Shown: piece after piece, positions 729 to 46,518 of the stretch
Numbering within the stretch: the stretch's first letter is position 1
Layout of the letters: the number at the start of each line of letters is the position of its first letter
Origin: Deltaproteobacteria bacterium
GTDB lineage: Bacteria > Desulfobacterota > Desulfobulbia > Desulfobulbales > Desulfobulbaceae
Reading direction: 5' to 3'
DNA length: 53,089 nucleotides
Assembly: GCA_024280455.1 (NCBI GenBank)
Contig: JAJRQC010000048.1
Coordinates: forward strand, 1 to 53,089
Notes under the pieces: generated by a model
What the model was told of the DNA's origin: nothing
Seen by the model: the letters and a program-made list of their open reading frames with translations, nothing else
Database searches by the model: none
Made by a program: the position numbers and the translations under genes

Positions 729-983
729 TTAAATCTTTTCCAACAGTTCCACGCCGGCAGGGGCTTCACCCACTGTCACAGTATAGTCGGCAAAGGAACG
801 AGTCGGGTCGTCGCCGCAGTTTTTTTTCACCGTGACCAGGTCAAAAAGCTTGCTGGCCGGGGCGTTTCCAAGTTCGGAATCGTGTTTGTGATAACCAGGC
901 TGTTTCATTTTCAAGAAGGATATCAACAGTGGATTGACCGTTCTCGGATTGATAGCGATGAGTTCTCCTTTGCTAAAATCCAT
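729..983 (-). CDS. Unrecognised 84-residue protein at the end of the cas operon
   Basis: I do not recognise this protein. ATG at 983 is preceded by GGAG at a good distance (GGAGATAATTG), and the start overlaps the cas7 stop, so it should be translationally coupled to cas7. A TTG one codon upstream is also possible. The protein has no signal peptide, membrane segment or Cys pair. It has a basic-polar first half (FLKMKQPGYHKHD) and a compact second half (KLFDLVTVKKNCGDD). It sits where cas4 would normally follow in type I-C loci but shows none of the Cas4 cysteines or nuclease motifs. It could be an accessory Cas protein, an anti-CRISPR-like protein, or unrelated cargo that landed in the operon. 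Confidence 0.6.
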   Translation of the reverse strand: MDFSKGELIAINPRTVNPLLISFLKMKQPGYHKHDSELGNAPASKLFDLVTVKKNCGDDPTRSFADYTVTVGEAPAGVELLEKI

Positions 984-1830: not shown

Positions 1831-1832
1831 GG

Positions 1833-28730: not shown

Positions 28731-30149
28731 TTATCCACCGGACAGGGCCGTCAACTTTTCAACCAGGAGCTGATGCAGAGCCTCGCTGCGATCGGCTATA
28801 TCCTCAACGACATCCCCGGTTATGGCCTGAAAAAAGCGTTCACAGATTTTCTGCTCGCTGCGGCTCCAGCCCCTGGTATACCCCTGTTTGCCCGGCTGTG
28901 CCTGCTTCTCGTCAACAGCTTCAGCATAGTCGCGGCGGCCGTGGGCCCAGTTGATAACCAGACTGTAAAAGAGCAGGACCCGGTCCAGCAGGATGTACAT
29001 GAGCTGGATATTGTTGACCGGTCCAAACTTAAGCTGCTGCTGATCCAGTTTCATGCCGAGCAGTCGAACACCGGATAGAAGCTCCCTGCCCTTCAAAGCC
29101 GTACCGGCGGCACCCAGCACTCCTCCTATTGCCGAGAACACGCCAAAGGTAATTCCTGCCGCCGCCAGATCGAGTCCGGCCCCCAAAGCGGCTCCGCCCA
29201 GGCCGCCGGTCATGATCAACTGCCTCTGATTCAGACCGAGGAACTGCCAGGTTTTTTCGCTGAACAGATCCTGGCGCAGGATAGACTGGGGGGGCAACTC
29301 CGGGGTAAAGATATTATGCTTGAATAGCTTTCGGATCCGCCGATGGGTCGAGTTCTCTTTTTTGCCGACAAATCGGGTGAAGGCCGCCCGCATTTTTTCC
29401 TGCAGCTCTTCTTCATCTTCCCCTTCCTTAAGAGCAACAGTTTTCCGATAGGAAAGCACCTCTTCCAGCAGTGCCGTTATCAAGCCGGCACTCTGACGGG
29501 TCCGGGCGCTCCAGTCCTCTTTAAAGGCACGGATAACCAACTCCAGCACGCCCTCAATGGTCTGGTCGATCCCCTTCAGACTTTCCAGCAGGGCGATACG
29601 CTCGGCATAGGTGGCCCGAATCGAGTTGAACACCCGAATCGAGTTGAAATGCTTGCGAAATTCTTGCTGCCACTGGCCAAGAAAACCGGAGTCATCCTCC
29701 TTGCAGTTGAGGATCGCCATCCGGGGACGACCGGTGAGGCGGAGAATTTCCATTTCAGCCTTATCCATGTTGCGAACCGGCCGCGAGCCGTCGACGACAA
29801 AAATAATCCCGGCCCCGTCAATGAGGGGTTTTAAAAGCCGACAATCATCATGAAAAGCGGCATCGTCGCCATGGGCGGCAATAAAATCGACCAGTAACCG
29901 CTCATCCGGCCCCTGGTAGTGCTGCATCCATTGCAGAGTTCGCCGGGGGTTCTGAAAACCCGGAGTGTCGACAAAGGCAATCACCTCCCGGCCGTCTATT
30001 GTAACCGGAAAACGACGACATTCCCTGGTTTCACCCGGGATCGGACTGATCCGGACACTGTCATCCTCGGCCAGGGTCGAGAGGACGGAAGATTTTCCCT
30101 CGTTGGGATGACCGACCACTGCAAATTCAGGTACCTCCTGCACTATCAT
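28731..30149 (-). CDS. GTPase with DUF3482 C-terminal domain
   Basis: Protein of 472 residues from ATG at 30149, which overlaps the stop of the DUF2868 gene as ATGA. The N-terminal Era/TrmE-like G domain has G1 GHPNEGKSS (13-21), a Thr-containing G2 region (GETRECRRF), G3 DTPG, and a G4-type NCKED. The C-terminal DUF3482 part has amphipathic and glycine-rich hydrophobic segments (IMTGGLGGAALGAGLDLAAA), consistent with membrane association. DUF3482 GTPases are regularly encoded next to DUF2868 membrane proteins in proteobacteria; the pair's role is unestablished. Translational coupling here supports a joint complex. Confidence 0.9.
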   Translation of the reverse strand: MIVQEVPEFAVVGHPNEGKSSVLSTLAEDDSVRISPIPGETRECRRFPVTIDGREVIAFVDTPGFQNPRRTLQWMQHYQGPDERLLVDFIAAHGDDAAFHDDCRLLKPLIDGAGIIFVVDGSRPVRNMDKAEMEILRLTGRPRMAILNCKEDDSGFLGQWQQEFRKHFNSIRVFNSIRATYAERIALLESLKGIDQTIEGVLELVIRAFKEDWSARTRQSAGLITALLEEVLSYRKTVALKEGEDEEELQEKMRAAFTRFVGKKENSTHRRIRKLFKHNIFTPELPPQSILRQDLFSEKTWQFLGLNQRQLIMTGGLGGAALGAGLDLAAAGITFGVFSAIGGVLGAAGTALKGRELLSGVRLLGMKLDQQQLKFGPVNNIQLMYILLDRVLLFYSLVINWAHGRRDYAEAVDEKQAQPGKQGYTRGWSRSEQKICERFFQAITGDVVEDIADRSEALHQLLVEKLTALSGG

Positions 30150-31714
30150 AACTCCACCAGCCGAATACATTGCAGATACGGATCCCCCAGCGTATCTATT
30201 TTCTTGCTCCAGATACGATAATCCTGGTCACCTGTTGTGGTAAAAATGGTCCCGGCATCAGGTTTTCCGATAAAGGCGATACTGAGAAGAACCTTTTCCC
30301 CCACCAGTTCACGGAGTCTGCGCAGAAAAAAGAAGAACTCTTCTATGGGCGGCTGCCAGGCCTCCTGGAGCAGAAACAGCGAATCCGCACCGGTCAGATT
30401 TTCCTGCCCTATTTCCAGAAAAACCTGCTGTTCCTCGTCCCCGCCCTGGTCGACACGCAGACAGCGTTCAACCTCCAGCCCAAGCCGGGCCCGGACCAGC
30501 CCGGCCAGTTCTTCTCTATCACAGTCATCAAAGAGTTCATCGGGGATCAAAGCCAGCACCCGGCCACCGGCCTCTAGTGCAATCTGGTTCCTGGCCGGTT
30601 CATCCGCCTCCTCCTCGTAGACCGGCGGCTGCTCCAGGCTGGATTCGGTTGAAAGACGGGGGGTCAGCATCCGGTGGAGTAACCGGCTCTGGTCGGCGGT
30701 AGTAAAGTCCAGCCGCCGGAGCAGGGAGCGGCTGGTCAACCATCCGGCCACCAGCAGACAGATCCTTGGCAGAAGCCCGTAAACCGCCACACTCAGACAG
30801 AGAAAGGGCCACCAGGAAACCAGATCGCCGGTGGCCAGATGATAGATGCCGTCCTTGAGAACCATCTGACTGCCCTTGATCTGGGCCGGATCAGGGAAGC
30901 CGATCCCGGCGGGCAGAAGCCATGACCAGGGACGAGCGATGGTCTCGACCAGTCGATACACGGTCTCGCTGCTGAGCTGCAGGGTCGACTGCCAGCCAAA
31001 GGCAATATCGGTCCCCACCACCTTGAGCAGGGTCGCCGCCAGCACCCCGAGGTTAAAGCCGATGCCCCCGAGCTGGATCAGGAGAAAAAAGGGGAGCACA
31101 AAGAGAAGGGCATAACTCCTGTGCCTCCGTCTCAGACGGCCCGATAAACCGGCAAGCCACCGGTGCGAATCCATGGCAGCCGGCAGACGTCCTATTTTTC
31201 CAGCCAGATACAAAATGCCTTTCCGGAGCAGGGTATAGAGTATCGGCAGAGATTCACCGCCGATCAGACGCCGGGCAAGAAAAGAAATCAGCAGGATCAG
31301 AAGCAGAAACAGCTGGCTGCAGACAAAGAAAAGGAAAAAAAAGGAGACGTTGACCGGAGTGGTTCCGGAATAACTGAGAAAAGAAAAAGCCGAACCCCAG
31401 CCGACAAACAGGGCAAATATAAAAATAAACCAGCCGCAGATCCGGGTCAACTCCCGAAAAAGTCCTCCCGGCAACACCGTGACCCCGCCTGTATCATGGA
31501 GGAATTGGTCACGACGCCGGGACAACCATTGCCTGAGCAGGCAGGCCCGGTCAACGGAGGAGTCGTCCTGTCCACAGAGTTCCCTGATCTGCAGGTATAT
31601 TGCCCGATCACGTTCAACCGGATGACCCTCTCCATCGCTGTCGATCAACTCCTGATCTGAACTGAGGAAAAATTCAAAATCCAGAATGTCGGCAAGCGTC
31701 CAGGGCTTTTTCAT
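30146..31714 (-). CDS. DUF2868 membrane protein
   Basis: Protein of 522 residues from ATG at 31714 (GGAGG eight bases upstream). The N-terminal LADILDFEFFLSSDQELI and ERDRAIYLQIRELCG are typical of DUF2868. At least four membrane helices are visible: two at about 95-150 (FIFIFALFVGWGSAFSFLSY and FFFLFFVCSQLFLLLILLIS), one near 200-230, and one near 310-335. The remaining C-terminal half is soluble and acidic (LEVERCLRVDQGGDEEQQVF). It overlaps the downstream GTPase by four bases. In family terms this is the constant partner of the DUF3482 GTPase. Confidence 0.9.
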   Translation of the reverse strand: MKKPWTLADILDFEFFLSSDQELIDSDGEGHPVERDRAIYLQIRELCGQDDSSVDRACLLRQWLSRRRDQFLHDTGGVTVLPGGLFRELTRICGWFIFIFALFVGWGSAFSFLSYSGTTPVNVSFFFLFFVCSQLFLLLILLISFLARRLIGGESLPILYTLLRKGILYLAGKIGRLPAAMDSHRWLAGLSGRLRRRHRSYALLFVLPFFLLIQLGGIGFNLGVLAATLLKVVGTDIAFGWQSTLQLSSETVYRLVETIARPWSWLLPAGIGFPDPAQIKGSQMVLKDGIYHLATGDLVSWWPFLCLSVAVYGLLPRICLLVAGWLTSRSLLRRLDFTTADQSRLLHRMLTPRLSTESSLEQPPVYEEEADEPARNQIALEAGGRVLALIPDELFDDCDREELAGLVRARLGLEVERCLRVDQGGDEEQQVFLEIGQENLTGADSLFLLQEAWQPPIEEFFFFLRRLRELVGEKVLLSIAFIGKPDAGTIFTTTGDQDYRIWSKKIDTLGDPYLQCIRLVEL

Positions 31715-31776
31715 GCAAAAAACCTCCACACAAAAAACCTGCCTGCGGCAGCGATGGTCTGCATCAGGAACTCCGA

Positions 31777-32445: not shown

Positions 32446-33897
32446 TTACTTAAACCGGAGGCTGACCGGACAATGATCGGAACCGGTTACCTCATCATGG
32501 ATGGCGGCATCAAGGATCCGGTCCCGGCTGCCGGGATCAACCACAAAATAATCTATCCGCCAGCCTATATTCTTGGCCCGGGCATTAAATCTGTAACTCC
32601 ACCAGCTGTACTGCTCAGGGTCCTGATTGAACAGGCGGAAGGTATCTACATACCCGGCGTGAACGACTTCATCAATCCAGGCCCGCTCCTGAGGAGAAAA
32701 ACCCGGATTCTTCACATTGGCCTTAGGATTGGCCAGATCAATTTCCTTATGGGCCACGTTGAGATCCCCGCAGAGCACCACGGATTTCTCTTTGCCGAGC
32801 CGATCCATAAAGGCAAGGACAGCCGCGTTAAATGCCTGCTTATACTCTAGACGCTTAAGCTTCGCCTGTGCATTGGGGAAGTAGCAGTTGATCAGGAAAA
32901 AGTCATCAAACTCCAGGGTCAATACCCGGCCCTCGGCATCGAAGGCATCCTCGCCAAGTCCGTATATGACGTTTATCGGCTCTGTCCGACTCAGGACCGC
33001 TGTTCCGGAGTACCCTTTTTTTTGGGCAGGATACCAGAAGGCATGATAGCCGGGAATATGTTTCACCTCGTCGGGCAGTTGATCGGGCAGCGCTTTAATT
33101 TCCTGGAGGGCAAAAACATCGGCATCGAGTTCGTGGAAGGCATCAAGAAAGCCTTTTTTTAAGGCCGCCCGTAGTCCGTTGACATTCCAGGAGATAAAAG
33201 TACGGCCCTGATCGGCAGATGTTGCTCCTGGTTTTTCTCCTGGAATTTTTCGCGGGTGCACACCGTTTTTCGGACAAAGATCAGCCAGCACGCAGCGGTC
33301 ACAATGGGGCAGGCGAGGCTTACAGGTTCCCTGGCCAAAGGCGACCAGGATGGAGTTTATTCTGATCCAATAGCGCTGTGGAAGTTTGTCCCGCAGTGCC
33401 ATCTCCGTCTGCAAAGGGGTTTTTGTGTTAACATAGCCCCAGATGTTCATAATCCGGTGGACATGGGTATCTACACAGATGGCCGGCTTTGCAAAGGCAA
33501 CCGCAACCACCAGATTCGCCGTCTTACGGCCCACCCCGGGAAGCTGGACCAGCTCATCAATGGTATCTGGTACGCTGCCTGCAAATTTTTTCTGCAGGAC
33601 TTCCGGGAGTGCGGCCAGATATCCGGCCTTATTACGGAAGAAACCGACGGGATAGATAATTTTTTCAAGCTCGGAAACGGACAGGGCGGCGAGTTCCTTC
33701 ATTGTTTCGGCACGGGAAAACAACCTGCGGGATGCAGCAGCCGTAACCTCGTCTTTGGTTCGGGCCGAGAGAATGGTCGCGACCAGAACCTTGAACGGGT
33801 CTTTGGTCTGGGCCGCAATGAGGTCAACCACCGGCACCTGGTAATCGGCAACTTCTTTTTCAAGCCGGGCAACGGCCTGCTCAATAGTAAAGGCCAT
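32446..33897 (-). CDS. Natural fusion of endonuclease III (Nth) and exonuclease III-type AP endonuclease
   Basis: One uninterrupted frame of 483 residues. Residues 1-215 are endonuclease III: HhH motif LPGVGRKTANLV with catalytic Lys125, Asp143 (CVDTHVHR), and the 4Fe-4S ligands Cys192, Cys199, Cys202, Cys208 (C-X6-C-X2-C-X5-C). After a linker, residues 232-483 are ExoIII/XthA: SWNVNGLR (Asn240), Glu266 (ALQEIKA), GYSGTAVLSR, Asp378/Asn380 (CGDLNVAH), IGWRIDYF, Asp474/His475 (SDHCPV). The fused enzyme would remove oxidised pyrimidines and process the resulting AP site and 3' block, two successive base excision repair steps in one protein. ATG at 33897 has a poor ribosome site, but earlier in-frame residues do not belong to the family. 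Confidence 0.92.
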   Translation of the reverse strand: MAFTIEQAVARLEKEVADYQVPVVDLIAAQTKDPFKVLVATILSARTKDEVTAAASRRLFSRAETMKELAALSVSELEKIIYPVGFFRNKAGYLAALPEVLQKKFAGSVPDTIDELVQLPGVGRKTANLVVAVAFAKPAICVDTHVHRIMNIWGYVNTKTPLQTEMALRDKLPQRYWIRINSILVAFGQGTCKPRLPHCDRCVLADLCPKNGVHPRKIPGEKPGATSADQGRTFISWNVNGLRAALKKGFLDAFHELDADVFALQEIKALPDQLPDEVKHIPGYHAFWYPAQKKGYSGTAVLSRTEPINVIYGLGEDAFDAEGRVLTLEFDDFFLINCYFPNAQAKLKRLEYKQAFNAAVLAFMDRLGKEKSVVLCGDLNVAHKEIDLANPKANVKNPGFSPQERAWIDEVVHAGYVDTFRLFNQDPEQYSWWSYRFNARAKNIGWRIDYFVVDPGSRDRILDAAIHDEVTGSDHCPVSLRFK

Positions 33898-34122
33898 GCA
33901 AAAATCAATAAAGTTGAGGAAGATGAAGAGTATGAGACAGGATACCAGATGTAGCCCGGAGACGCAACAGCCCAAGCTCTTCCTGCATTCCCGGAGACCG
34001 TAAAGAGCCGTTCAAAATCTTCGCCTTTCCGCGGTCTGAATCCTTTCACAGGCTCGGCATGAAAGATGCAACAGTGGGCAGTATGCTACTAATGTGTATC
34101 AAAAACTGCAACGGAAATGCTT

Positions 34123-34164
34123 TATTTTGCAACACTAATGTTGTATTTTGCCACATAATCGTTG
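34123..34164. promoter_or_regulatory. Tandem 21-bp imperfect direct repeat upstream of the signalling island
   Basis: TATTTTGC begins at 34123 and again at 34144; each is followed by A/C-ACA and ends in GTTG, giving a 21-bp period (two helical turns). The first unit contains CAACA-CTAA-TGTTG. It sits 67-108 bp before the first gene of the island and could be a regulator binding site. Confidence 0.4.
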
Positions 34165-34230
34165 CAGGGAAACCTTGAAACACACACTTTTTCATGCTCT
34201 GCAAACGTTAAAAGTCCACAGGAGGAATAC

Positions 34231-35373
34231 ATGGCAGGTAAATGGAAAATAATGTCCGGAGTTATCGGCTCGTTTCTTCTCTGCGGTGGCCTGCTCATCC
34301 TTCTCGATTACCTGCAGGTGAAAAAACTGGCTGAAGGCAGCACCCTGCCGGTCACCCTCTGGTCCATCCTGATCCTTGGTGCCCTCCTCCTCTGCACCCT
34401 GATTCTGATCAATAACGGCTTAATCCGCATCTCACAAAAAGTCGCCGACTATAAACAACAACTCATCGATACGGATAATGCCCTGAAAGAAGCTCAGTCC
34501 GAGTTCAATGAAAACCTGGAGCGCCGCACCTTTGAGATCTCAGTGATTAATGCATCCCTCAACCGGGAAATAGCTGAACGTATCCAGGCTGAATCGGCAA
34601 GCAAACTGCTGCAGCGAAGGCTGGAGCTTATCCTGGATTCCGCCGGAGAGGGCATATTCGGCCTCGACACCAATGGAAAGGTTACCTTCGTCAATGTTGC
34701 CGCCACGGATATGCTTGGCTGGAGCGCTGGTGAAATGATCGGAAAATCACATCATGATATGGTGCACCATGCCTATGAAGACGGTTCCCCGTATCCCATT
34801 GCCGAATGCCCGATCCACATGGCCTATATGGACGGCGAGGTTCAATTCAGAGAAAATGACGTCTTCTGGACCCGGGACGGGAGAAGCTTCCATGTCGAAT
34901 ATATCAGTACTCCCATCGTTGAGCATAACAAACTGGTTGGGGCGGTTGTCGTCTTCTCCGACATCAGCCACCGACTCAGAACGGAAGAGGAAAAAAACAA
35001 ACTGCAACGAAGAATGGAGCTCATTCTGGATTCCGCCGGTGAGGGGATATTCGGCCTCGACCTCGACGGCAAGGTGATCTTTGTCAACAAGGCCGCCACG
35101 GTCATGCTTGGCTGGACCCCCGAAGAGCTGGAGGGGAGCTCTCTGCACGACCTTGTCCATCACACCTACAGCGACGGATCTCCACATCCGGCCGACCAAT
35201 GCCCCATGCGCATGACCTGCCGGGACGGCCAGGTTCACTTCAGATCCGATGATGTATTCTGGAGTAAGGATGGGGCAAGTTTCCCGATTGAATATGTCAG
35301 CACCCCCATTATAGAAGACGGCACATTGACCGGAGCAGTTATCGTTTTTCGTGACCTGAACACCTTTACCTGA
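34231..35373 (+). CDS. Membrane protein with two PAS domains and no kinase
   Basis: Protein of 380 residues; GGAGGAATAC before ATG at 34231 fixes the start. Two membrane helices are at about 8-27 and 42-65, then a coiled coil (DTDNALKEAQSEFNENLERR). Two very similar PAS domains follow, near 130-250 and 255-378. Each opens RRxELILDSAGEGIFGLD and continues ...VHHxYxDGSPxP, with a Cys in the ECPIHMA and QCPMRMT positions. There is no HisKA, HATPase, GGDEF or EAL domain. It is followed 12 bases later by a REC-PAS-AAA+ regulator, so it probably senses a signal and acts through protein contacts. Confidence 0.85.
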   Translation: MAGKWKIMSGVIGSFLLCGGLLILLDYLQVKKLAEGSTLPVTLWSILILGALLLCTLILINNGLIRISQKVADYKQQLIDTDNALKEAQSEFNENLERRTFEISVINASLNREIAERIQAESASKLLQRRLELILDSAGEGIFGLDTNGKVTFVNVAATDMLGWSAGEMIGKSHHDMVHHAYEDGSPYPIAECPIHMAYMDGEVQFRENDVFWTRDGRSFHVEYISTPIVEHNKLVGAVVVFSDISHRLRTEEEKNKLQRRMELILDSAGEGIFGLDLDGKVIFVNKAATVMLGWTPEELEGSSLHDLVHHTYSDGSPHPADQCPMRMTCRDGQVHFRSDDVFWSKDGASFPIEYVSTPIIEDGTLTGAVIVFRDLNTFT

Positions 35374-35385
35374 AACGAGGATCCA

Positions 35386-37194
35386 ATGGAACAGACCGGT
35401 TTAGAAAACACCGCTATTCTCATCATTGATGATGAAGAAAGCCTCCGCCTGACCTTTCAGCTCTTTCTGCAGCGTCAAGGATATTCGCCGATACGGACAG
35501 CCGCAAGTTTCGAAGAGGCCCTGACCGCTATTGCCGACAATCATTTTGACCTGATCATCAGCGACATCGTGCTGGAGGGGAATTCCGGCATTGATCTCCT
35601 GCGGAGAATACGTGAAATGGGGGTCCAGTGCCCGGTGGTCATGGTCACGGGATATCCTAATGTGGAGACCGCATCGGAGGCAGTTCGGCTCGGGGCCTTT
35701 GACTATATCTCCAAACCCGTTGACAAAGAGACCCTGCTCAAGACCGCCCGACTGGCCCTGCGGCAGTACCGGCTTGAGAGTGAAAAAGAAAAAGCCGAGC
35801 AGGAGAACAAACAGTACCAGACCCTGCTGGAGACTATCTTTCGCAGTGTCTCCGACTCCATAATCACCGTTGATTCCGAACTGAATATAGTCACCATGAA
35901 TCAGGCCGCGGCTTCTCTTTTGCGGGAATTGAATCCCGGCAGCACTGAGCGGTTAAACTTCAATGAATTCTGCCACCGAAACGACTTCTGCTCCCTGAAA
36001 GATGACGCCGAGCATGTCCTGAAGACGGGAACTGAAATCAGTGAACATCGAATCGAATGTTTGACAACCGGCAACAGCCGGAAAATTCTCTCCGTCTGCA
36101 TGTCGCCCTTTGATGATGGAGGAGGCAATTTCAGCGGTGTGGTGGTGGTCATTCGCGACATGACCAGAATAGCCCCGAAAAAGGCCGGCCACCGAACCAG
36201 GTTCCATCGTTTTATCGGTAAAAGTGATGTCATGCAGACCGTCTACACCATGATTGAAAATGTGGGCAAGGTCGACACCACCGTCCTGATCAGCGGTGAG
36301 TCCGGGACAGGACAAGAACTTGCTGCTGAAGCCCTGCATGAAGAAAGCCATCGCAAAAACAGGCCGCTGGTTAAGGTCGACTGTACGGCGATACCGGAGG
36401 GCCTGCTTGAGAGTGAACTGTTCGGTCACAAGAAAGGATCCTTTACCGGCGCGGACCGGGATCGGATGGGCCGTATTCTTCAGGCCGACGGCGGCACCCT
36501 GTTTCTGGATGAAATCGGCGATATTTCGGCCATGGTGCAGTTGCGCCTGCTGCGTTTCCTGCAAGAAAAAACCTTCTATCCCGTTGGCCGGGATACGCCT
36601 ATTCAGGTTGATGTACGGGTGATAACCGCGACTAACGTAAACCTACGGCAAAAGGTTGAAGAGGGGGAATTTCGCGAGGATCTCTATTTCCGCCTTCGGG
36701 TTATTGATGTGATCCTGCCGTCTCTCAGGGAACGAAAGGGCGACATTGCCCTGCTGACCCACTATTTTATTTCTCTGATATCCCGGAAGATAGGAAAAAC
36801 AATCAGCGGTATTTCCGACCAGACCCTTGCGACCATGGAACGTTACCCATGGCCGGGCAACGTTCGCGAGCTTGAGCATGTTCTGGAGCGTGCATGCGTA
36901 CTCTGCGACAGTCCGACCATTTCAGCCGATCAGCTGCCTCCGGAAATTATCCATTTCCAGCAGGAGGTGCCCATCACCCAACCTGAACCGGTACTCGCCC
37001 AGGTCGGCACCTCGATCATCACACCCCTGAACCGTTACAACGACCCGGCTCCGATGGCGGAGATGATCCTGAGCGCCTTGCGCAAGACCGGTGGAAACAA
37101 GGCAAAGGCCGCCAGGATACTCGGTATCGACAGGTCAACCCTGTATCGAAAAATCAAGGAAATGCAGATCGATTTATCGCCCCTTGACCTGTAA
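35386..37194 (+). CDS. NtrC-type regulator (REC-PAS-AAA+-Fis) with altered Walker A
   Basis: Protein of 602 residues. The receiver at about 8-125 has phosphoacceptor DLIISDIVLEGNSGID; PAS at about 150-265; AAA+ at about 285-510; Fis-type HTH at the end (NKAKAARILGIDRSTLYRKI). The AAA+ core has Walker A GESGTGQE, where Gln310 (codon CAA) replaces the catalytic Lys; the GAFTGA loop reads GSFTGA (351-356); Walker B is FLDEIGD; the arginine region is intact. Without the Walker A Lys, normal ATP hydrolysis is doubtful, so this may be a regulator that works without activating sigma-54 or that poisons mixed oligomers. It follows the PAS protein by 12 bases. Confidence 0.93.
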   Translation: MEQTGLENTAILIIDDEESLRLTFQLFLQRQGYSPIRTAASFEEALTAIADNHFDLIISDIVLEGNSGIDLLRRIREMGVQCPVVMVTGYPNVETASEAVRLGAFDYISKPVDKETLLKTARLALRQYRLESEKEKAEQENKQYQTLLETIFRSVSDSIITVDSELNIVTMNQAAASLLRELNPGSTERLNFNEFCHRNDFCSLKDDAEHVLKTGTEISEHRIECLTTGNSRKILSVCMSPFDDGGGNFSGVVVVIRDMTRIAPKKAGHRTRFHRFIGKSDVMQTVYTMIENVGKVDTTVLISGESGTGQELAAEALHEESHRKNRPLVKVDCTAIPEGLLESELFGHKKGSFTGADRDRMGRILQADGGTLFLDEIGDISAMVQLRLLRFLQEKTFYPVGRDTPIQVDVRVITATNVNLRQKVEEGEFREDLYFRLRVIDVILPSLRERKGDIALLTHYFISLISRKIGKTISGISDQTLATMERYPWPGNVRELEHVLERACVLCDSPTISADQLPPEIIHFQQEVPITQPEPVLAQVGTSIITPLNRYNDPAPMAEMILSALRKTGGNKAKAARILGIDRSTLYRKIKEMQIDLSPLDL

Positions 37195-37399: not shown

Positions 37400-37900
37400 A
37401 TGGCTGGTCAGCTGTTTTCCATACACAAAAAGCCCGGATCCGTTCTCCTTGCAGCGGCCATCTGTTTCAGCCTGTGCTCTCCGGTCCTGTGTCACGGCGG
37501 CCGGACATCTTCACTCCCACGCTATGTCGGCTCCAGTGCCTGCAAGCCCTGTCATAAAAAAGAATATTTAAGTTTTACCAGATATGCAAAAAAAAGTACC
37601 TCCTATCGCAGCATTGAACGCCTGAAAAAAGGCCTGAGCACACAGGATCTGAACAAATGCTACGGCTGTCACACAACCGGCTACGGCAAGCCCGGAGGCT
37701 TCACCAGTATTGAAGACACCCCGGAGTTGAAAAACGCCGGTTGCGAGGTTTGTCACGGACCGGGCAGCCGACATGTTATCACCGGAGATCCCGACCGGAT
37801 CAAAAAAAAACCAACCAGAAAAGACTGCGAGAGCTGTCACACGCCTGAACGGATCCGGGCCTTCAGATATACACCCCTTATTCACGGCGGGGGACATTGA
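37400..37900 (+). CDS. Periplasmic tetraheme cytochrome c
   Basis: Protein of 166 residues from ATG at 37400 (AGGAGACGTT upstream). Signal peptide: KPGSVLLAAAICFSLCSPV. Four CxxCH motifs: CKPCH, CYGCH, CEVCH and CESCH. The HGPGSRH stretch after the third heme is as in cytochrome c554-like and related multiheme proteins. It ends two bases before the start of the histidine kinase that itself carries a heme motif, so the two are almost certainly co-translated. The likely role is to deliver electrons or a heme-bound ligand state to that sensor, or to be regulated by it. Confidence 0.9.
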   Translation: MAGQLFSIHKKPGSVLLAAAICFSLCSPVLCHGGRTSSLPRYVGSSACKPCHKKEYLSFTRYAKKSTSYRSIERLKKGLSTQDLNKCYGCHTTGYGKPGGFTSIEDTPELKNAGCEVCHGPGSRHVITGDPDRIKKKPTRKDCESCHTPERIRAFRYTPLIHGGGH

Positions 37901-37901
37901 A

Positions 37902-40415
37902 ATGCTGCGGGTTGTCGATTTTATCAGCAAACGACTGGCTCTGAAAATCATGGTCATCCTGGCTGTCGGCGTGGCCCTGATTATGACCCTGGACATTGCA
38001 CTCAGCGTCAGGAACCAACGGGATGAGATGCGGCAGACTATGACCGATTTCGGTCGGGAGCTTGGCTCGCTTGCCTATGCCGGTATTAAACATCCCATGG
38101 CGGTCGGCGACAGTCCTTCGATTGAAAAACAACTTCTCGATATCAAAGGCCAAACCCAGCGGGCTGAAATTGTGATCTGTGATTTCAAACAACAGATTGT
38201 CTTTGCCACCGATACGCGCAGAATCAACACCCACGTTGCACAGTTCATCCCTAACCGAAAAACGCTGGATGCCCTGGACAGATCCCTGCATGTAAAGGGA
38301 ACCGGAGCAGAAGAGACCTTTGAAGAAGAAGTAGACGGTAAACGATACATGGTGACCATTCGCAGCATCCTCAACGAAAACGAATGTCACCACTGCCACG
38401 GTGAAACCATACAAGTGCTCGGCGCCCTGCTGACCCGGTACTCCACCGATGCGACCTATGCCTCTATAGCCACCTTGCGGGAAAGGACCATTGCCATTTC
38501 CCTTCTCGGTCTGGCTGCCATTATAATCTATATCTATCTGGTCACCAAACCGTTGACCGAACTGGCCGCCAAGGCGGAACAGCTTGCCAAGGGCGACCTG
38601 ACGGTCTCGGTTCCAGTGACGACCAAAGACTCCATAGGCATTCTCGGCAAGGCATTCAATGCCATGGTCATGGGCATCAAGGATCAGATAGAGCTTGCCA
38701 ACAGCCTAAAAGAAACCATTGCCGACCCCCTGTTCATTGTCAATCTCGACATGACTGTAACCTATATGAATGACGCCTGTTCACTGTTCACCGGCTACAG
38801 CCATGAGGAGGTGGAAGGCAAACTGACCTGCAGCCAGCTGTTGCAATGCGATACCTGCGATACCAACTGTCCGGTACAGAAATGCATTCAGGAGGAGGGG
38901 CCGTTCAGAGGGGTCAGAGCAACGGCTATCACCAGAGAAGGAGAAGAAATTCCGATCATGGGCAGTGCCAGTGTCCTGAAAGACGCCCACGGGAAAATCA
39001 TCGGCGCCATGGAAGTCTTTAAGGATATCACCGATGTTATCAGGGCGGAACGGCTCCAGTATATCAAGCAGACCGCCGAGCGCGAGGAAGAGCAACGAAA
39101 ATATCTAGAAACCAGAGCTCAAAATATTCTGCAGACACTCTCGCTGGCCTCGGAAGGTAATCTGGAGGTACGGGCTGAACTCTCCGGCCAGAAAGGGGTC
39201 ATGGACAAGATTGTCGAACATACCAACCACATGCTCGACAACCTGGAAAAACTCTATCAAAAAATCTCTACTTTTAACAAAGAATTGGAACTGGAGGTTG
39301 CCGGACGCACGGCAATGCTCAGAGAACGCACCTTTCTGCTTGAGCAGGCCAACCGTGAATTGCGGGAACTTGACCGGTTTAAATCTTCGTTTCTGGCCAA
39401 CATGTCGCACGAGCTGCGGACACCGATGAATTCCATCATCGGCTATACCGACCTTCTTATCGACGGAGTGGACGGTGCTATCAATGAAGAACAGAAAAAG
39501 AGTCTGGGCAAGGTCTCCAACAATGCCAAACATCTTCTGCAGCTGATTAACGACATTCTCGACATGTCCAAAATCGAGTCCGGCAAGGTTGAACTGACTC
39601 CCGAGGAAACCGATATCCGCCTGCTTATCAAGGCAGTGGTCTCCACCTTTGAGCCGGCATTGGAAGATAAGCAACTGACGCTCACTTTTGACTTTTCTCA
39701 GGACCTGCCGCCGGTCTATATCGATAACGACAAGACCCGGCAGATTCTCATCAACCTGCTGTCCAATGCGGTCAAATTCACGGAGAAAGGCGGTATCATT
39801 ATCCATGCAAGCCCGTCTCCCATTGAGAGGACTCCCGGAGAAGGACCTCTTTTTGTGGAAGTATGCGTCGAGGATACCGGCATCGGCATTAAGCCTGGTG
39901 ATATGAAAAAGCTGTTTGACAAGTTCACCCAGATCGACGTCTCCACCATCCGGCAATATGAAGGAACCGGTCTGGGCCTGAGCATTGCCAGAGGTCTGGT
40001 TGTCCTGCACAAAGGGGTCATATGGGCGGAGAGTGAATTCGGCAAAGGGACCAGGCTGTACTTTACCCTGCCGATCAGCAGAAAATCGTTTGAAAAGCCG
40101 ACCGAACCGATCATTGAGTCTGCCATGTGCGAAAAGCTCGGCAACTTTTTTCATAAACCGGCCGATGTCTTCTGCCATGAGATAATCTACGGCGATACCC
40201 CGGTCAAATGCTGGGAATATACCCGCTGCGGTCAAACGAGCTGCCCGGGCTATGAAAGCGCTGAACATAGGTGCTGGCTTATTCCCGGCACCCACTGCAA
40301 AGGGACGAAAGTCTGTACCTTTCCGGAAAAAATAAACTTCTGCAAAACATGTGAAATGTTTGAACAACTGCTTCTCGGCAAGGATGAAAAGGCGGAAGGA
40401 GATGCAGTGTCTTGA
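37902..40415 (+). CDS. Histidine kinase with periplasmic heme c motif and C-terminal two-CW domain
   Basis: Protein of 837 residues (CGGGGGACATTGAA before ATG at 37902). Membrane helix 1 at about 12-35; a periplasmic domain of some 155 residues ending in a c-type heme motif C162-H-H-C165-H166 (NENECHHCHGE); helix 2 at about 195-216; HAMP to about 265. Next is a PAS domain at about 275-385 with an unusual Cys cluster (TCSQLLQCDTCDTNCPVQKC). The catalytic core has His503 (LANMSHELRTPMNS), NLLSNAVKFTEKGG, EDTGIGI and GTGLGLSIARGLV. The end, about 765-835, is a two-CW domain (KCWEYTRCGQTSCPGYE, HRCWLIPGTHCKG, CKTCEMFEQLL). All kinase motifs are intact. It likely senses redox state or a gas ligand through heme. 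Confidence 0.92.
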   Translation: MLRVVDFISKRLALKIMVILAVGVALIMTLDIALSVRNQRDEMRQTMTDFGRELGSLAYAGIKHPMAVGDSPSIEKQLLDIKGQTQRAEIVICDFKQQIVFATDTRRINTHVAQFIPNRKTLDALDRSLHVKGTGAEETFEEEVDGKRYMVTIRSILNENECHHCHGETIQVLGALLTRYSTDATYASIATLRERTIAISLLGLAAIIIYIYLVTKPLTELAAKAEQLAKGDLTVSVPVTTKDSIGILGKAFNAMVMGIKDQIELANSLKETIADPLFIVNLDMTVTYMNDACSLFTGYSHEEVEGKLTCSQLLQCDTCDTNCPVQKCIQEEGPFRGVRATAITREGEEIPIMGSASVLKDAHGKIIGAMEVFKDITDVIRAERLQYIKQTAEREEEQRKYLETRAQNILQTLSLASEGNLEVRAELSGQKGVMDKIVEHTNHMLDNLEKLYQKISTFNKELELEVAGRTAMLRERTFLLEQANRELRELDRFKSSFLANMSHELRTPMNSIIGYTDLLIDGVDGAINEEQKKSLGKVSNNAKHLLQLINDILDMSKIESGKVELTPEETDIRLLIKAVVSTFEPALEDKQLTLTFDFSQDLPPVYIDNDKTRQILINLLSNAVKFTEKGGIIIHASPSPIERTPGEGPLFVEVCVEDTGIGIKPGDMKKLFDKFTQIDVSTIRQYEGTGLGLSIARGLVVLHKGVIWAESEFGKGTRLYFTLPISRKSFEKPTEPIIESAMCEKLGNFFHKPADVFCHEIIYGDTPVKCWEYTRCGQTSCPGYESAEHRCWLIPGTHCKGTKVCTFPEKINFCKTCEMFEQLLLGKDEKAEGDAVS

Positions 40416-40524: not shown

Positions 40525-40917
40525 GTGAAAAAACATGCTGTTCCACCCCTGAAGATCCTCGTAGTTGACGACAATCAGGACAGTCGCGAGCTGGTGATAA
40601 AAATCCTGCAAAAAGAGGCGGTTCAACTTTTTGAGGCCATTGACGGCGAGGACGCTTTGGAAAAGGTGAAGCAAACATGCCCCGACCTTATCCTTCTGGA
40701 TATTCCTTTACCAAAAATCAACGGATATGAAGTCATCCGCAGGCTCAAGATCAACAACGAGTTCTCCTCCATCCCCATTATCGCCCTTACCGCACATGCA
40801 ATGAAAGGGGATAAGGAAAAAGCAATTGCAGCCGGATGTGACGGCTACATTTCCAAGCCCATTGATATTCACGACTTTTCTGATCGCATTGCATCGTTTT
40901 TGCAACAAAAAGATTAA
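40525..40917 (+). CDS. Single-domain response regulator (REC), copy 1
   Basis: Protein of 130 residues starting at GTG (GGAGTAAGGTA upstream). Complete receiver: ILVVDDNQDSRELV, phosphoacceptor Asp in LILLDIPLPKINGYEV, Thr in IIALTAHAMKGDKE, Lys in GYISKPIDIH. The SRELVxKxLxKEAVQLFEAI pattern is DivK/CheY-like with a PleD-type end. No output domain, so it is a phosphate shuttle or sink. Its partner copy at 42438-42821 is about three-quarters identical at protein level, and each is followed by a second REC-containing gene. Confidence 0.93.
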   Translation: MKKHAVPPLKILVVDDNQDSRELVIKILQKEAVQLFEAIDGEDALEKVKQTCPDLILLDIPLPKINGYEVIRRLKINNEFSSIPIIALTAHAMKGDKEKAIAAGCDGYISKPIDIHDFSDRIASFLQQKD

Positions 40918-40933: not shown

Positions 40934-42418
40934 GTGGAATCTAAAGAAAAAATTCTGATCGTCGACGATACGATTGATACGGTAGAGTTACTGACAAAAA
41001 GACTGCGGGCCGACGGTTATGATACCGATGCGGCCTATGACGGCGAGGAGGCCCTTGAAAAAGTGAAGGAATATGCACCGGACCTCATCATTCTCGATGT
41101 CATGATGCCGAAAATAGATGGTTTTGAAGTATGCCGACGCCTCAGCCTGTTCCCCAACAGGAAAGATTTTCGCATCCTCATGCTGACCGCCAAGAGTACA
41201 ATCCAGGACAAGGTCAAGGGACTGGATATAGGCACGGACTCCTACCTGACCAAGCCCTTTGATTATAAAGAGCTGGCAGCTATGGTCAGATCCATCCTTA
41301 CCCGTAAAAAATGCTACCGCGCTGTTGCCGGCGACGGGACTCCGGGGAACATCCCGGTCCCACACAACAAAACCCATGCCATCCCGGCCGAAATGAAGTC
41401 ATTTTCCGACATCTCCGGCATGGACAACCTGCGCCGAAAAATCTCTGAAAAATTCACTTTTCACAATATTATCAGTAAAAATGAGAAGATGTTGAAGATT
41501 TTTGCAACCCTTCCCAACATTGCAAAAAGCGACAGCAACGTACTCATTGAAGGCCCGAGCGGCTCGGGAAAGGAGCTGTTTGCAAAGGCGATCCATACGC
41601 TCAGCGAGAGGAATGGCACCTTCATCGCACTCAACTGCGCGGCCCTGCCCGATACGCTTCTGGAGTCGGAGCTGTTCGGATATAAAAAAGGAGCATTTAC
41701 CGGGGCGGTCAAAGATCGACAGGGGCGTTTTTCCCTGGCCCAGCATGGAACCATATTTCTTGATGAAATAGGTGACATTTCCCCGGCACTGCAACTCAAG
41801 CTGCTCCGGGTACTGCAGGAAAAAGAATTTGAACCGCTGGGCGGCACCACCACCATTAAGACGGATGTCCGGGTTCTGGCAGCGACCAATAAAAACCTGA
41901 AAGAGCAGGTTGTAAAAGGTCTCTTCCGAACCGATCTGTATTTCCGTCTCAATGTCATCCACCTGGCATTGCCCTCTCTTGCCGAGCGACGTGAGGATAT
42001 CCCCCTGCTGATCCTCCATATTGTCGACAAGTTCAGCAAGTTGAAAAAAAAGAAAATAGATGCCGTTCGGCCGGATGCGCTCAACATCATGATGCAGTAT
42101 GATTTTCCCGGCAATATCAGGGAACTTGAAAATATCATCGAACATTGCTTTGCCATGTGTCAGGAGACCGTCATTGATGTTCACTGTCTGCCGGAGGAAC
42201 TTATACAATCAACCTCAGCCAGTCGTATTGAAAATAATAACAATACTCGTGGAACAAATCCTCTCTCCAGTGCCGAGGCAACGACCATCCTGGCAACATT
42301 GCAGCGGTTCAACGGCAACAGAGGGGAGACATCGGCGCACCTGGGCATTGACAAGACGACCCTCTGGCGAAAAATGAAAAAATATCAGATTGACTATCCG
42401 GTGAAGAAAACCCGGTAA
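40934..42418 (+). CDS. Sigma-54 activator, REC-AAA+-Fis
   Basis: Protein of 494 residues from GTG at 40934 (GGAGCAGCCTGA upstream), 16 bases after the previous gene. The receiver has ILIVDDTIDTVELLTKRL and phosphoacceptor in LIILDVMMPKIDGFEV. The AAA+ domain is complete: Walker A GPSGSGKE (207-214), GAFTGA (253-258), FLDEIGDI, FRTDLYFRLNVI, and the Fis-type HTH (NRGETSAHLGIDKTTLWRKM). It should activate sigma-54 promoters on phosphorylation. This is the intact counterpart to the Walker A variant at 35386. It could be the protein that binds the paired palindromes at 47203-47249 and 49331-49377, but that is not shown. Confidence 0.95.
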   Translation: MESKEKILIVDDTIDTVELLTKRLRADGYDTDAAYDGEEALEKVKEYAPDLIILDVMMPKIDGFEVCRRLSLFPNRKDFRILMLTAKSTIQDKVKGLDIGTDSYLTKPFDYKELAAMVRSILTRKKCYRAVAGDGTPGNIPVPHNKTHAIPAEMKSFSDISGMDNLRRKISEKFTFHNIISKNEKMLKIFATLPNIAKSDSNVLIEGPSGSGKELFAKAIHTLSERNGTFIALNCAALPDTLLESELFGYKKGAFTGAVKDRQGRFSLAQHGTIFLDEIGDISPALQLKLLRVLQEKEFEPLGGTTTIKTDVRVLAATNKNLKEQVVKGLFRTDLYFRLNVIHLALPSLAERREDIPLLILHIVDKFSKLKKKKIDAVRPDALNIMMQYDFPGNIRELENIIEHCFAMCQETVIDVHCLPEELIQSTSASRIENNNNTRGTNPLSSAEATTILATLQRFNGNRGETSAHLGIDKTTLWRKMKKYQIDYPVKKTR

Positions 42419-42437: not shown

Positions 42438-42821
42438 ATGGAAAAACAGGACAACCCGGCACTGAAAATCCTGGTGGTCGACGACAATCAAGACAGCCGC
42501 GAACTGGTGTTCAAAGTTCTGCGCAAAGAGGCGGTTCAACTTTTTGAGGCAATTGACGGCAAGGATGCCCTGGAGAAAGTGGAACAGGTACGACCGAACA
42601 TTATCCTGATGGATATCTCCTTACCGAAAATCGACGGCTATGAGGTGACCCGCAGGCTCAAGAACAGCACGATATTCTCCTCCATCCCCATCATCGCCCT
42701 TACCGCTCACGCCATGAAAGGGGATAAGGAAAAAGCACTTGCTGCCGGATGTGACGGCTACATTTCCAAGCCCATCAATATTCATGGTTTTTATGAACAA
42801 ATTGCATCTTTTCTCCATTGA
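42438..42821 (+). CDS. Single-domain response regulator (REC), copy 2
   Basis: Protein of 127 residues, duplicate of the 40525 gene. Receiver: ILVVDDNQDSRELVFKVLRK, phosphoacceptor in IILMDISLPKIDGYEV, IIALTAHAMKGDKEKALAAG and GYISKPINIH. TTGGAGGGACAACGCT stands before ATG. Some DNA blocks are near-identical to copy 1, showing a recent or selected tandem duplication. The next gene starts 25 bases later. Confidence 0.94.
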   Translation: MEKQDNPALKILVVDDNQDSRELVFKVLRKEAVQLFEAIDGKDALEKVEQVRPNIILMDISLPKIDGYEVTRRLKNSTIFSSIPIIALTAHAMKGDKEKALAAGCDGYISKPINIHGFYEQIASFLH

Positions 42822-42846
42822 CAGGGGAAAAGCCGGAATTTCCAGC

Positions 42847-43935
42847 ATGGAACAAAAAGAAAAAATTCTGATCGTCGATGACACCGTAGACACGGTGGAA
42901 CTGCTGACAAAAAGGCTGCGTGCCGACGGCTATGACACAGATGCGGCCTATGATGGCGAGGAGGCCCTCGAAAAGGTAAAGAAATATGCCCCGGATCTCA
43001 TCATCCTGGATGTAATGATGCCGAAAATCGACGGCTATGAGGTTTGTCGGCGCCTCAGTCGGTTTGCAAACAGGAGACACTTTCGTATCCTTATGCTGAC
43101 CGCCAAAAACGAGATCCAGGACAAGGTCAGGGGATTGGACACCGGTGCCGACAGTTACCTGGCCAAGCCCTTTGACTATAAAGAACTGAAGGCCATGGTC
43201 AAATCCCTTCTTTCGCGGAAAGAGGCGGCTAAGCAGGAGACGCAGAACGAAAAACGTGCCGCCCTTGATCATATGGTGGATGAGGTCTCACATGAAGTGC
43301 GCAATCCGCTTGTCACCATAGGTGGATTTGCCCGGCGGGTCCGGCAAAGCATGCAGGAAGATGATCCGAACTGCAAATATCTCGACATCATCCTGCAAAA
43401 CGTTGAATCCCTGGAAAAAATGGTTCTGCAGCTGATCGCGCTGAAGGATACGACCCTCTCGGAGGCCCAGCCGACGGATATCAACAAAGTCATCAAGGAG
43501 GCTGTCGACCGCTATCGACAGGAGATAAATAAAAACACAATCCAGATGACAACCCAATTTGCCGAAAACCTTCCCCTCATTCCCGCCGTCCGTGAGAACC
43601 TTGTCACTGCCGTCGCCAACATCATTGAAAACAGTATTGAAGCGATGCAGGACTGCCGGCACAAGGAACTGCAGGTTTCCACCAGGCTGGTGGATGGTCA
43701 GGTGTTTGTGGAGATCACCGACAGCGGGCGGGGCATTCCCCGCGAGACCATCAAAAATATCTTTGATCCATTTTATACTTCAAAAACCCGCGGGCCCGGC
43801 CTCGGACTGACCTTTGCACTGAAAACCATTCAGCATCATAAAGGAACAATCACCGCCCGCAGCAAGGTCGGTGAGGGGGCCTCGTTTATTCTTCGATTGC
43901 CGCTCAAAGGGGTGAAACAACCCGCCGCCGGTTGA
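42847..43935 (+). CDS. Receiver-histidine kinase (REC-HisKA-HATPase)
   Basis: Soluble protein of 362 residues. The N-terminal receiver (about 1-120) is very similar to that of the 40934 activator: ILIVDDTVDTVELLTKRLRA, LIILDVMMPKIDGYEV, DSYLAKPFDYKEL. It is followed by a coiled linker and the kinase core: His149 in DEVSHEVRNPLVTIGGFARR, NIIENSIEAMQD, TDSGRGI and GPGLGLTFALKTI. I place the start at ATG 42847; upstream in-frame residues match no family, and GGAA is the only ribosome-site-like element. With the preceding REC gene it repeats the REC + REC-output layout of the upstream pair but with a kinase instead of AAA+. Confidence 0.92.
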   Translation: MEQKEKILIVDDTVDTVELLTKRLRADGYDTDAAYDGEEALEKVKKYAPDLIILDVMMPKIDGYEVCRRLSRFANRRHFRILMLTAKNEIQDKVRGLDTGADSYLAKPFDYKELKAMVKSLLSRKEAAKQETQNEKRAALDHMVDEVSHEVRNPLVTIGGFARRVRQSMQEDDPNCKYLDIILQNVESLEKMVLQLIALKDTTLSEAQPTDINKVIKEAVDRYRQEINKNTIQMTTQFAENLPLIPAVRENLVTAVANIIENSIEAMQDCRHKELQVSTRLVDGQVFVEITDSGRGIPRETIKNIFDPFYTSKTRGPGLGLTFALKTIQHHKGTITARSKVGEGASFILRLPLKGVKQPAAG

Positions 43936-45294: not shown

Positions 45295-46404
45295 TCACGC
45301 TTCATCCTGATCCTTCTTTTTGCGCAATGGAATTGTCAAGACTCTAGCTGTAAAATGGATAAAAACGGCGCAGGCACCACCGGCCAGGAGAAATATGCCG
45401 ATTTTATCCATAAGCTTCATGCGGGTACCGGCAAGGAGATAAAAATGACTGACATGGTAACTTTCGAGAACGGGACGTGCGACATTGTAACGCTCCACAG
45501 TGCCGTCATCTTTTGAGAAGATGAGCGATACGGCGTTAAAATAGGGTGACTCGGCCGAATGACAGTTTTGGCACGTCTTTTCCGCGGTACCCCTGTTTAC
45601 ATGGTGGGCAATTGAATTGATGTCGGCGACCAGCTCGGCACGGAAAACGGCATGGATATTTTTCTGTTTAAGAAGGAGTACAAGATTGTCGAATTCAGCG
45701 GCATCTATGAGTCCATCCTTATTTGCGTCAATCGTTCCCATGAACTGCTCCGGCTCCATCCCCAGGACCTTGAACAGTTTGTCGCTTTTGTAAAAGCTGT
45801 CCGTAACAAGGTCGTACAGTTTAAGATTTATGTGGCGGGGAACATCAGGGGCATGGCAGACAACACATTCCACATAGGCGAAATGGGAGTCTCTTGAGGG
45901 TAGCCAGTCGTGGAACTGATACGGGTTGTGACATTTCAGGCAGATGGAGTTTTCCCGTTCAGCAACCGAGGCACTCTCCATATGTTGTACATAATGATAT
46001 CCATGACAGGCATAACAGGTCATGGTAATGCCCTTGTTTCGCATCTTCATGTGAACACTGTTCTTGAAATCATCCCCGGCCTCTTCATGACAGGAAGCGC
46101 AGCACACCGCTTTCAAATACTGCTCATGGGGTACTTCTTCATCATAATTGAGTTCTTCAATATCGGAATGGCAGTCCACGCAGGTAATACCGTTAATATT
46201 GTGTACGGAATGATTAAATTTTTCTTCGTCCACATAAAGGAACTCGGTTATCTCCGTCTTCAGAATGTTATCCGTGCTTTCCTTGGTGAGTCCCTCGTCA
46301 CTGTGACACTCAAACCATTCGCTGTTTTCATTGGCGAAACCGGCAGCCGGCCACAGCCAACAGATACAGACAATGCTCAACCCCCAACGTAGTATTTTTT
46401 TCAT
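45295..46404 (-). CDS. Membrane-anchored multiheme cytochrome c with an EF-hand
   Basis: Protein of 369 residues from ATG at 46404 (GGGAGAGCAGCC upstream). Signal peptide: KKILRWGLSIVCICWLWPAA. Six canonical heme motifs: C75VDCH, C102ASCH, C130YACH, C155LKCH, C180VVCH, C278QNCH. A seventh, near the mature N-terminus, is degenerate: W30FECH, where Trp (TGG) holds the first Cys position. Between hemes 5 and 6, residues 226-237 (DANKDGLIDAAE) are a perfect EF-hand calcium loop. A C-terminal membrane helix at about 334-358 is followed by a Lys/Asp tail. With the cytochrome b gene it likely forms a quinone-oxidising or -reducing periplasmic complex. Confidence 0.9.
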   Translation of the reverse strand: MKKILRWGLSIVCICWLWPAAGFANENSEWFECHSDEGLTKESTDNILKTEITEFLYVDEEKFNHSVHNINGITCVDCHSDIEELNYDEEVPHEQYLKAVCCASCHEEAGDDFKNSVHMKMRNKGITMTCYACHGYHYVQHMESASVAERENSICLKCHNPYQFHDWLPSRDSHFAYVECVVCHAPDVPRHINLKLYDLVTDSFYKSDKLFKVLGMEPEQFMGTIDANKDGLIDAAEFDNLVLLLKQKNIHAVFRAELVADINSIAHHVNRGTAEKTCQNCHSAESPYFNAVSLIFSKDDGTVERYNVARPVLESYHVSHFYLLAGTRMKLMDKIGIFLLAGGACAVFIHFTARVLTIPLRKKKDQDEA

Positions 46405-46518
46405 GGCTGCTCTCCCGACAGATTCTAAATTGAACAACTGCACCAATATAATCGTATTTTTTTGCTGCAACGAAACGGTTGTCAATTACCGGGGCCGGTT
46501 TACGTCAATTATGCTGTC

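Follow-up and report, generated by a model that had tools for sequence, protein, structure and literature searches.

What does a small exported cytochrome do when its gene stands directly before that of a receptor carrying a heme motif of its own? This question is raised by a stretch of 53,089 nucleotides from a bacterium of the Desulfobulbaceae (assembly GCA_024280455.1, contig JAJRQC010000048.1, called the window below and numbered from its first letter), in which the gene of a tetraheme cytochrome precedes that of a membrane histidine kinase. A preliminary description of this locus had placed the cytochrome two bases before the kinase, had pointed in the latter to a periplasmic CHHCH motif, a PAS domain with six cysteines and a two-CW C-terminal domain, and had proposed a sensor reading both electron flow in the periplasm and the redox state of the cytoplasm. 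We find that the cytochrome and the heme sensor are a conserved cassette of many anaerobic bacteria, with either a kinase or a chemotaxis receptor as output, and the gene pair suggests a receptor coupled to electron flow in the periplasm. With a rough probability of 0.55, we read the two genes as an electron-coupled receptor whose tetraheme cytochrome exchanges electrons with the sensor heme, signalling following the redox state. The observed basis of this reading comprises the gene pair, the heme motifs, the conserved position of a methionine, the predicted fold of the sensor and the attachment of the latter to different outputs. The features of the pair are the following.

37400-37900, forward strand: gene of the tetraheme cytochrome (ATG at 37400, stop codon at 37898-37900, 166 amino acids), Cytochrome_C554-like, predicted to be exported
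37541-37555, 37658-37672, 37742-37756 and 37826-37840, forward strand: the four CxxCH motifs of the cytochrome (residues 48, 87, 115 and 143)
37902-40415, forward strand: gene of the membrane histidine kinase (ATG at 37902, 837 amino acids), with c-heme sensor, HAMP, PAS, HisKA, HATPase and two-CW domains in this order
38097-38099, forward strand: Met66, which falls on the distal heme ligand of GSU0935, Met60, in the profile alignment with 3b42
38385-38399, forward strand: CHHCH c-heme motif (residues 162-166) of the periplasmic sensor domain (PF21563, Mcp40H-20_sensor)
38535-38681, forward strand: HAMP domain (PF00672, residues 212-260)
38712-39035, forward strand: PAS domain (PF13426/PF00989, about residues 271-378), with a cysteine cluster at residues 293-328 (38778-38885)
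39381-40076, forward strand: HisKA and HATPase_c core (PF00512, residues 494-561; PF02518, residues 608-725)
40209-40352, forward strand: two-CW cysteine-rich C-terminal domain (Cys 770-817; NCBIfam NF045718)

The cytochrome directly precedes the kinase, as had been described, a single base (37901) separating its stop codon from the kinase ATG. The open frame of the kinase extends upstream to 37773; the start at 37902 was chosen because a GGGGGAC stretch precedes this ATG. The kinase core exceeds the cut-offs of PF00512 (77.1 against 26.9) and PF02518 (87.6 against 26.4), which identifies a membrane sensor histidine kinase, and its periplasmic domain, where the CHHCH motif is present as previously noted, lies between hydrophobic segments covering about residues 4-38 and 194-219. 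This domain belongs to the PF21563 family of the GSU0935/GSU0582 type (27.1 bits for the whole kinase and 32.0 bits for the sensor alone, for a cut-off of 27). It does not reach the cut-off of the Tll0287-like family PF11845 (18.7 bits against 24.1, over residues 138-184 only).

The sensor with its HAMP domain and the cytochrome were searched separately in the same 145 genomes. Matches at E ≤ 0.001 were obtained in 127 and 111 of them, respectively, many being HAMP segments only or distant cytochromes, and strong matches from both searches mostly adjoin each other. We examined 48 regions and aligned 36 pairs, including that of the window. The cytochrome alignment (A1, 35 rows) and the sensor alignment (A2) were both built from cytochromes and sensors located near each other, so that the "class I" cytochromes below are defined by similarity, with paired members at the centre of the class. 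When the A1 profile was run against genome contigs and the best 80 of at least 538 relatives were retained on the cytochrome alone, a c-heme sensor gene came next on the same strand in 75 loci; the five others (L121, L131, L161, L192 and L194) lie at contig ends, with only 8-258 bases of sequence left. In 24 of the 80 loci the cytochrome is identical to an A1 row, and among the 56 remaining ones the sensor is present in 51. Where a group is named, these loci come from Desulfobacterota and Nitrospirota (Desulfobulbaceae, Desulfobacterales, Deltaproteobacteria, Nitrospirae, Thermodesulfovibrionales, etc.), one named strain being Desulfoferrobacter suflitae DRH4.

The same picture emerges from a phylum sample of 395 genomes, in which A1 detected 110 places at E ≤ 1e-20. 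A gap in E-values separates 44 class I places (≤ 2.1e-48) from the next class (≥ 3.4e-35), and this gap is the only boundary of the class that is independent of the pair-based alignment. All 44 class I cytochromes, found in 41 genomes, are followed by a sensor match, adjacency being scored when both matches lie on one strand of one contig less than 900 bases apart; 41 of them are not A1 rows, the three A1 rows being those of the window, G074:C11 and G087:C64. As a control, none of 50 distant cytochrome paralogues with longer frames shares a contig with any of the sensors listed at E ≤ 1e-15, many of these assemblies being fragmented. Chance adjacency was rejected on this comparison (44/44 versus 0/50), and the earlier view of the cytochrome as dedicated to its sensor is strongly supported by the two sets. 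In the initial genome screens for A1 and the sensor, only 8 or 9 candidates were scored in each genome, and some members may have escaped detection. A second class of 16 shorter cytochromes has the sensor next in 11 cases (10 by the adjacency count, plus L248). Class II tetraheme cytochromes (L242-L250, L252 and L114) end in HxH motifs and also stand 5′ of c-heme kinases.

For further counts we used 133 distinct pairs, admitting cytochromes with at least four CxxCH motifs and stretches of at least 105 (cytochrome) and 140 (sensor) amino acids, and counting identical cytochrome stretches once. The median intergenic gap in these pairs, taken up to the earliest possible start codon, is 9 bases (quartiles -4 and 34). 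No cytochrome-sensor fusion protein was found among the open reading frames (ORFs) of L069-L116, L117-L196, L201-L256 and the window. In L240 (G189:C131:21985-22943), both genes carry in-frame stops (TGA in the cytochrome, TAA in the sensor), apparently as a result of joint decay. A single cluster in L104 / L168 contains both a cytochrome-chemoreceptor pair and a cytochrome-kinase pair, with a receiver-GGDEF gene between them (as judged with a one-sequence GGDEF profile).

The receptors that carry this sensor differ in their outputs. Among 151 distinct sensors, 85 are kinases, 54 chemoreceptors and 3 sigma-54 activators, 9 being truncated or unassigned, and the 133 pairs divide into 77 kinases, 51 chemoreceptors and 5 unassigned. 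These labels come from profiles built in this analysis, with Pfam confirmation of MCPsignal in L104, L109, L110 and L111 and of Sigma54_activat in L071. Since the output varies between kinase and chemoreceptor, the constant partner of the cytochrome is the input domain. On quick trees, the label changes between kinase and chemoreceptor three times for the cytochrome and twice for the sensor; the sequences are short and branch support is uneven, so these counts are rough. A large ATPase gene, probably encoding CheA judging from its length and ATPase domain, stands immediately 5′ of the cytochrome in 7 of the 80 cytochrome-selected loci. The short-kinase versions L100-L103 and L106 have neighbours in common, which by eye we take to resemble rhodanese, UspA and YeeE/YedE-type sulfur transport proteins, a hint of a link to sulfur metabolism. 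The variety of outputs bears on the idea that the cytochrome is an ordinary respiratory carrier regulated by the system, as a target or feedback gene, and makes no contact with the sensor. Genes under the control of a two-component system often adjoin it; however, this cytochrome is also found in front of chemoreceptors, which exert no transcriptional control of their own, it lies immediately 5′ of the sensor gene with the short median gap given above, and no class I cytochrome of the phylum sample lies away from a sensor. We consider this explanation improbable. The simplest account is that the cytochrome acts on the sensor domain, most likely through electron exchange with the sensor heme.

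All 151 sensors collected contain the CxxCH motif, and homologues lacking it, which had been named beforehand as a finding that would speak against the proposal, did not appear, a count favoured by a sensor profile that was itself built from sequences with this motif. Searching the PDB with a profile of the sensor returned only two structures at E ≤ 0.1, GSU0935 (3b42, E 9.1e-12) and GSU0582 (3b47, E 3e-8), and aligned the conserved methionine with position 26 and the heme histidine with position 110 of 3b42. The heme ligands of GSU0935 are His144 and Met60 according to the available part of PMC8396549; if H110 of the chain corresponds to His144 (an offset of 34), position 26 is Met60. The methionine is kept in 120 of the 133 paired sensors, including 77/77 kinase pairs and 38/51 chemoreceptor pairs. 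In the two Geobacter sensors, with potentials of -156 mV (GSU0582) and -251 mV (GSU0935), the methionine is described in the same partial source as bound when the heme is reduced and released when it is oxidised (PMC8396549). The AlphaFold2 (AF2) model of the sensor is confident (predicted local distance difference test score, pLDDT, of 94.2), and its first Foldseek match is GSU0935 (3b42, E 1.9e-7, template modelling score 0.40, root-mean-square deviation 13.8). The predicted structure places the window sensor in the Cache/PAS-like fold of GSU0935. The heme motif and a methionine at the position of a ligand known to switch with redox state are in keeping with the proposal that the sensor reads periplasmic electron flow.

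The cytochrome has a signal-like hydrophobic stretch at its N-terminus and a histidine as its last residue, as seen from hydropathy and sequence. It belongs at family level to Cytochrome_C554 (PF13435, 69.0 bits for a cut-off of 20.8), and its nearest solved relative in a profile search is cytochrome c554 (1bvb, E 2.5e-11). An ordinary c554 orthologue was nevertheless rejected, the score against the equivalog model of Nitrosomonas cytochrome c554 (NF043010) being 37.1 bits for a cut-off of 400. All four CxxCH motifs, H124 and the C-terminal H165 (numbered in the 165-residue query without Met1) are invariant in the 35 aligned cytochromes, and a histidine is the very last residue in 121 of the 133 pair cytochromes, the other 12 having ends of the class II type. 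These invariant heme motifs stand against a cytochrome that would be a structural or assembly subunit, stabilising the sensor dimer or inserting its heme without electron exchange, since four conserved heme-binding sites are not needed for such a role. In its favour, sensor kinases with accessory proteins in the periplasm are a known phenomenon, and some related receptors lack the cytochrome; all the same, we regard this explanation as highly improbable.

H124 and H165 are the only two invariant histidines outside the CxxCH motifs in the 35 sequences. For four hemes, this leaves at least two without an invariant distal histidine, and thus room for open or otherwise ligated sites. Cytochrome c554 is a tetraheme protein with one five-coordinate heme and with reactivity towards nitric oxide (NO). 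These features speak for a ligand chemistry in which the cytochrome binds or converts NO, nitrite, hydroxylamine or sulfur species, thereby concentrating, making or removing a molecule that the sensor heme would detect. This is the main rival to an electron-coupled receptor, because a signalling-type heme Cache domain has been shown to bind NO, with high affinity, in the available part of PMC12889525. The conserved sensor methionine rather favours a redox-switched six-coordinate heme, though in the Geobacter sensors Met60 is displaced by NO and by carbon monoxide (CO) (PMC8396549, in part). On balance we consider the ligand explanation unlikely, though the least unlikely of the three alternatives.

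Several observations, beginning with the NO binding just mentioned, weigh against an electron-coupled receptor. The structure model of the cytochrome is poor (pLDDT 56.4). The methionine-bearing segment of the 3b42 alignment is weak when taken alone (i-Evalue 1.1), and the methionine is replaced by leucine or phenylalanine in 13 of the 51 chemoreceptor pairs. The best geometric fit of the sensor model in VIA-align is the heme-free WalK domain (Z 14.8), the Cache domains of PctD and CitA also fit well, and 3b42 is not among the 50 matches listed by this program; its absence there and its poor superposition are taken to be due to domain swapping in the 3b42 crystal. Distances in the cytochrome and sensor trees correlate (r 0.85 over 8778 comparisons of the 133 pairs), and linkage alone predicts this, so that the correlation shows linked inheritance only. 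Finally, sensors without a cytochrome neighbour, which the preliminary description had set as a refuting observation, do exist. Of the 54 best sensor matches in the 395 genomes, 41 have the cytochrome and 13 lack it (12 of the latter were inspected, and for two of the 13 the contig stops no more than about 200 bases upstream). Among those without it are the chemosensory operons L262-L265 and L269, which are otherwise alike. Seven further sensors, of the nearer set, have no cytochrome upstream (L093, a full kinase of the window architecture, L094, L105, L107, L108, L109 and L113). The three sensors with a sigma-54 activator also have no intact cytochrome, that of L071 being degenerate and none being found in the upstream stretch examined for L072 and L076. 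In L071, a degenerate cytochrome frame (673-960) in which every complete CxxCH is lost precedes the sigma-54 receptor (944-3121), as if the cytochrome had become useless once the output changed. A class I cytochrome thus implies a sensor, but a sensor does not imply a cytochrome, and the occurrence of similar receptors without it makes the cytochrome an accessory.

How the electron-coupled receptor could work can be outlined from these comparisons, in which we infer the contact between cytochrome and sensor, the direction of electron flow, the identity of the regulated genes and, for the window kinase, the switch of heme ligand. The exported tetraheme cytochrome would serve the c-heme sensor domain as an accessory subunit and would exchange electrons with the single heme of that domain, so that the receptor would follow the redox balance of periplasmic electron carriers instead of awaiting a small ligand. 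A change in the oxidation state of the heme would attach or release the conserved methionine, as reported for GSU0935 and GSU0582, and this switch would shift the two membrane helices and the HAMP domain and alter kinase activity. The signal may then pass to the stand-alone receivers and sigma-54 regulators encoded around the pair.

40525-40917, forward strand: stand-alone CheY-like receiver (PF00072)
40934-42418, forward strand: response regulator with receiver, sigma-54 activator and HTH domains (PF00072, PF00158, PF02954)
42438-42821, forward strand: second stand-alone receiver, 76% identical to the first
42739-43935, forward strand: receiver-histidine kinase (PF00072, PF00512, PF02518), the frame being given from 42739 and the true start probably lying later
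34162-35373, forward strand: membrane PAS-PAS protein, upstream of the pair (PF00989 twice), an uncertain member of the system
35386-37194, forward strand: receiver-PAS-sigma-54 activator protein, upstream of the pair, an uncertain member of the system

A stand-alone receiver follows 37 of the 40 complete hybrid kinases of a named set and normally comes next where the cassette has a hybrid kinase; a receiver protein of at least 200 amino acids follows 33 of these 40. The receivers are separate genes in the window. A two-block pattern for sigma-54 promoter-like sites gave ten scattered occurrences in the window, none immediately 5′ of the cytochrome or the kinase.

The cytoplasmic part of the kinase is less widely shared than its input domain. 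The PAS domain of the window protein contains the six cysteines announced by the preliminary description (residues 293, 310, 316, 319, 323 and 328). In 34 PAS-bearing kinase-type sequences, five of them are kept in 30, 31, 31, 31 and 26 cases and the sixth, Cys316, in only 3; in an alignment of PAS-bearing chemoreceptors (24 rows plus the window), just three are partly kept (14-16 of 25). The two-CW C-terminus is also confirmed: it passes the NF045718 two_CW_domain cut-off marginally (35.2 against 35), and of its eight cysteines seven are almost invariant, each present in 57 or 58 of 58 sequences. In 56 of the 77 kinase pairs a two-CW tail lies C-terminal to the ATPase domain, and 48 of these 56 also carry one or more receivers fused behind the kinase; profile matches located before the ATPase domain (8 kinase pairs) were excluded from this count. 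Both cysteine domains may bind metal or sense the cytoplasm. Three redox-capable sites are therefore present in the window protein, as proposed, whereas the system as a whole does not share them, with a PAS match in 57 and a two-CW tail in 56 of the 133 pairs. The idea that three redox sites make one logic was rejected, the cysteine cluster and the two-CW tail being limited to part of the receptors.

Other genes of the window are listed here as observations. Just past the signalling cluster, a multiheme cytochrome gene on the reverse strand (45298-46485, with Cytochrome_C7/NrfB-like matches) could be a target of the cluster. Also on the reverse strand are a single ORF combining an HhH-GPD DNA glycosylase domain and an Exo_endo_phos domain in Pfam (32449-33975), a possible glycosylase/AP-endonuclease fusion, two genes for a DUF3482-GTPase and a DUF2868 protein side by side (28734-31729), and a gene for the CRISPR-associated protein Csd1 (1836-3911, PF09709), probably part of a CRISPR-Cas locus at the window start.

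Compared with known systems, the window sensor resembles the c-heme sensors GSU0582 and GSU0935 (PF21563; 3b47 and 3b42) in its periplasmic Cache/PAS-like domain, its CxxCH motif and its methionine at the distal-ligand position, and it is followed by a HAMP domain. It differs in having a tetraheme cytochrome gene directly 5′, none being reported for the Geobacter proteins in the available parts of PMC8396549 and PMC3460858. The cytochrome, for its part, resembles Nitrosomonas cytochrome c554 (PF13435; 1bvb, 1ft5 and 1ft6), likewise tetraheme, and shares with it a core around CxxCHxxGxGxxGG and GCExCHGPG; unlike c554, the window type is shorter, ends in histidine, is paired with a receptor and remains far below the c554 equivalog cut-off. 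The GSU0582 and GSU0935 domains have been assigned to the sCache_heme family, whose NO sensors likewise have a Cache domain with covalently bound heme c, fused to a HAMP domain and to signalling outputs (PMC12889525, in part). In that family, a fused cytochrome c-like domain is given for Flavobacteria only, and the accessible text mentions no separate adjacent cytochrome gene such as the one found here (PMC12889525). For the "congregation" of Shewanella, the idea is likewise that cytochrome electron transfer informs taxis with a Cache-domain chemoreceptor, but general outer-membrane cytochromes are proposed there, as far as the available part goes (PMC5789149), whereas one small cytochrome is tied here by gene order to one receptor type.

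The main text of PMC12889525 does not mention operons, gene clusters, genomic context or c554, PMC3831638 mentions neither operon nor cytochrome, and the accessible parts of two further papers mention no operon (PMC3460858, whose cytochrome passages concern other matters) and no operon or adjacent genes (PMC8396549). The cytochrome-receptor pair was not found described, nor "two-CW domain" used as a term, in the literature searched; subscription papers and most preprints lay outside this search, and the novelty of the pair is not proven.

Receptors with c-type hemes are said to follow the environmental redox potential or to bind NO, and no electron carrier is named for them in the available parts of PMC8396549 and PMC12889525. 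A cytochrome gene beside the receptor, with kinase and chemoreceptor outputs alike, names a likely carrier, and the question of how cytochrome and receptor interact becomes testable with two small proteins. The chances seem to us evenly balanced that Desulfobacterota and Nitrospirota possess a widespread class of transmembrane receptors with its own periplasmic multiheme relay, in which the cytochrome and the heme Cache domain would be an electron-pressure input module that can be plugged onto kinases and chemoreceptors. If true, the electron-coupled receptor would offer a sensing module for engineering and would explain how electron flow is coupled to gene control and movement in sulfate reducers and their relatives.

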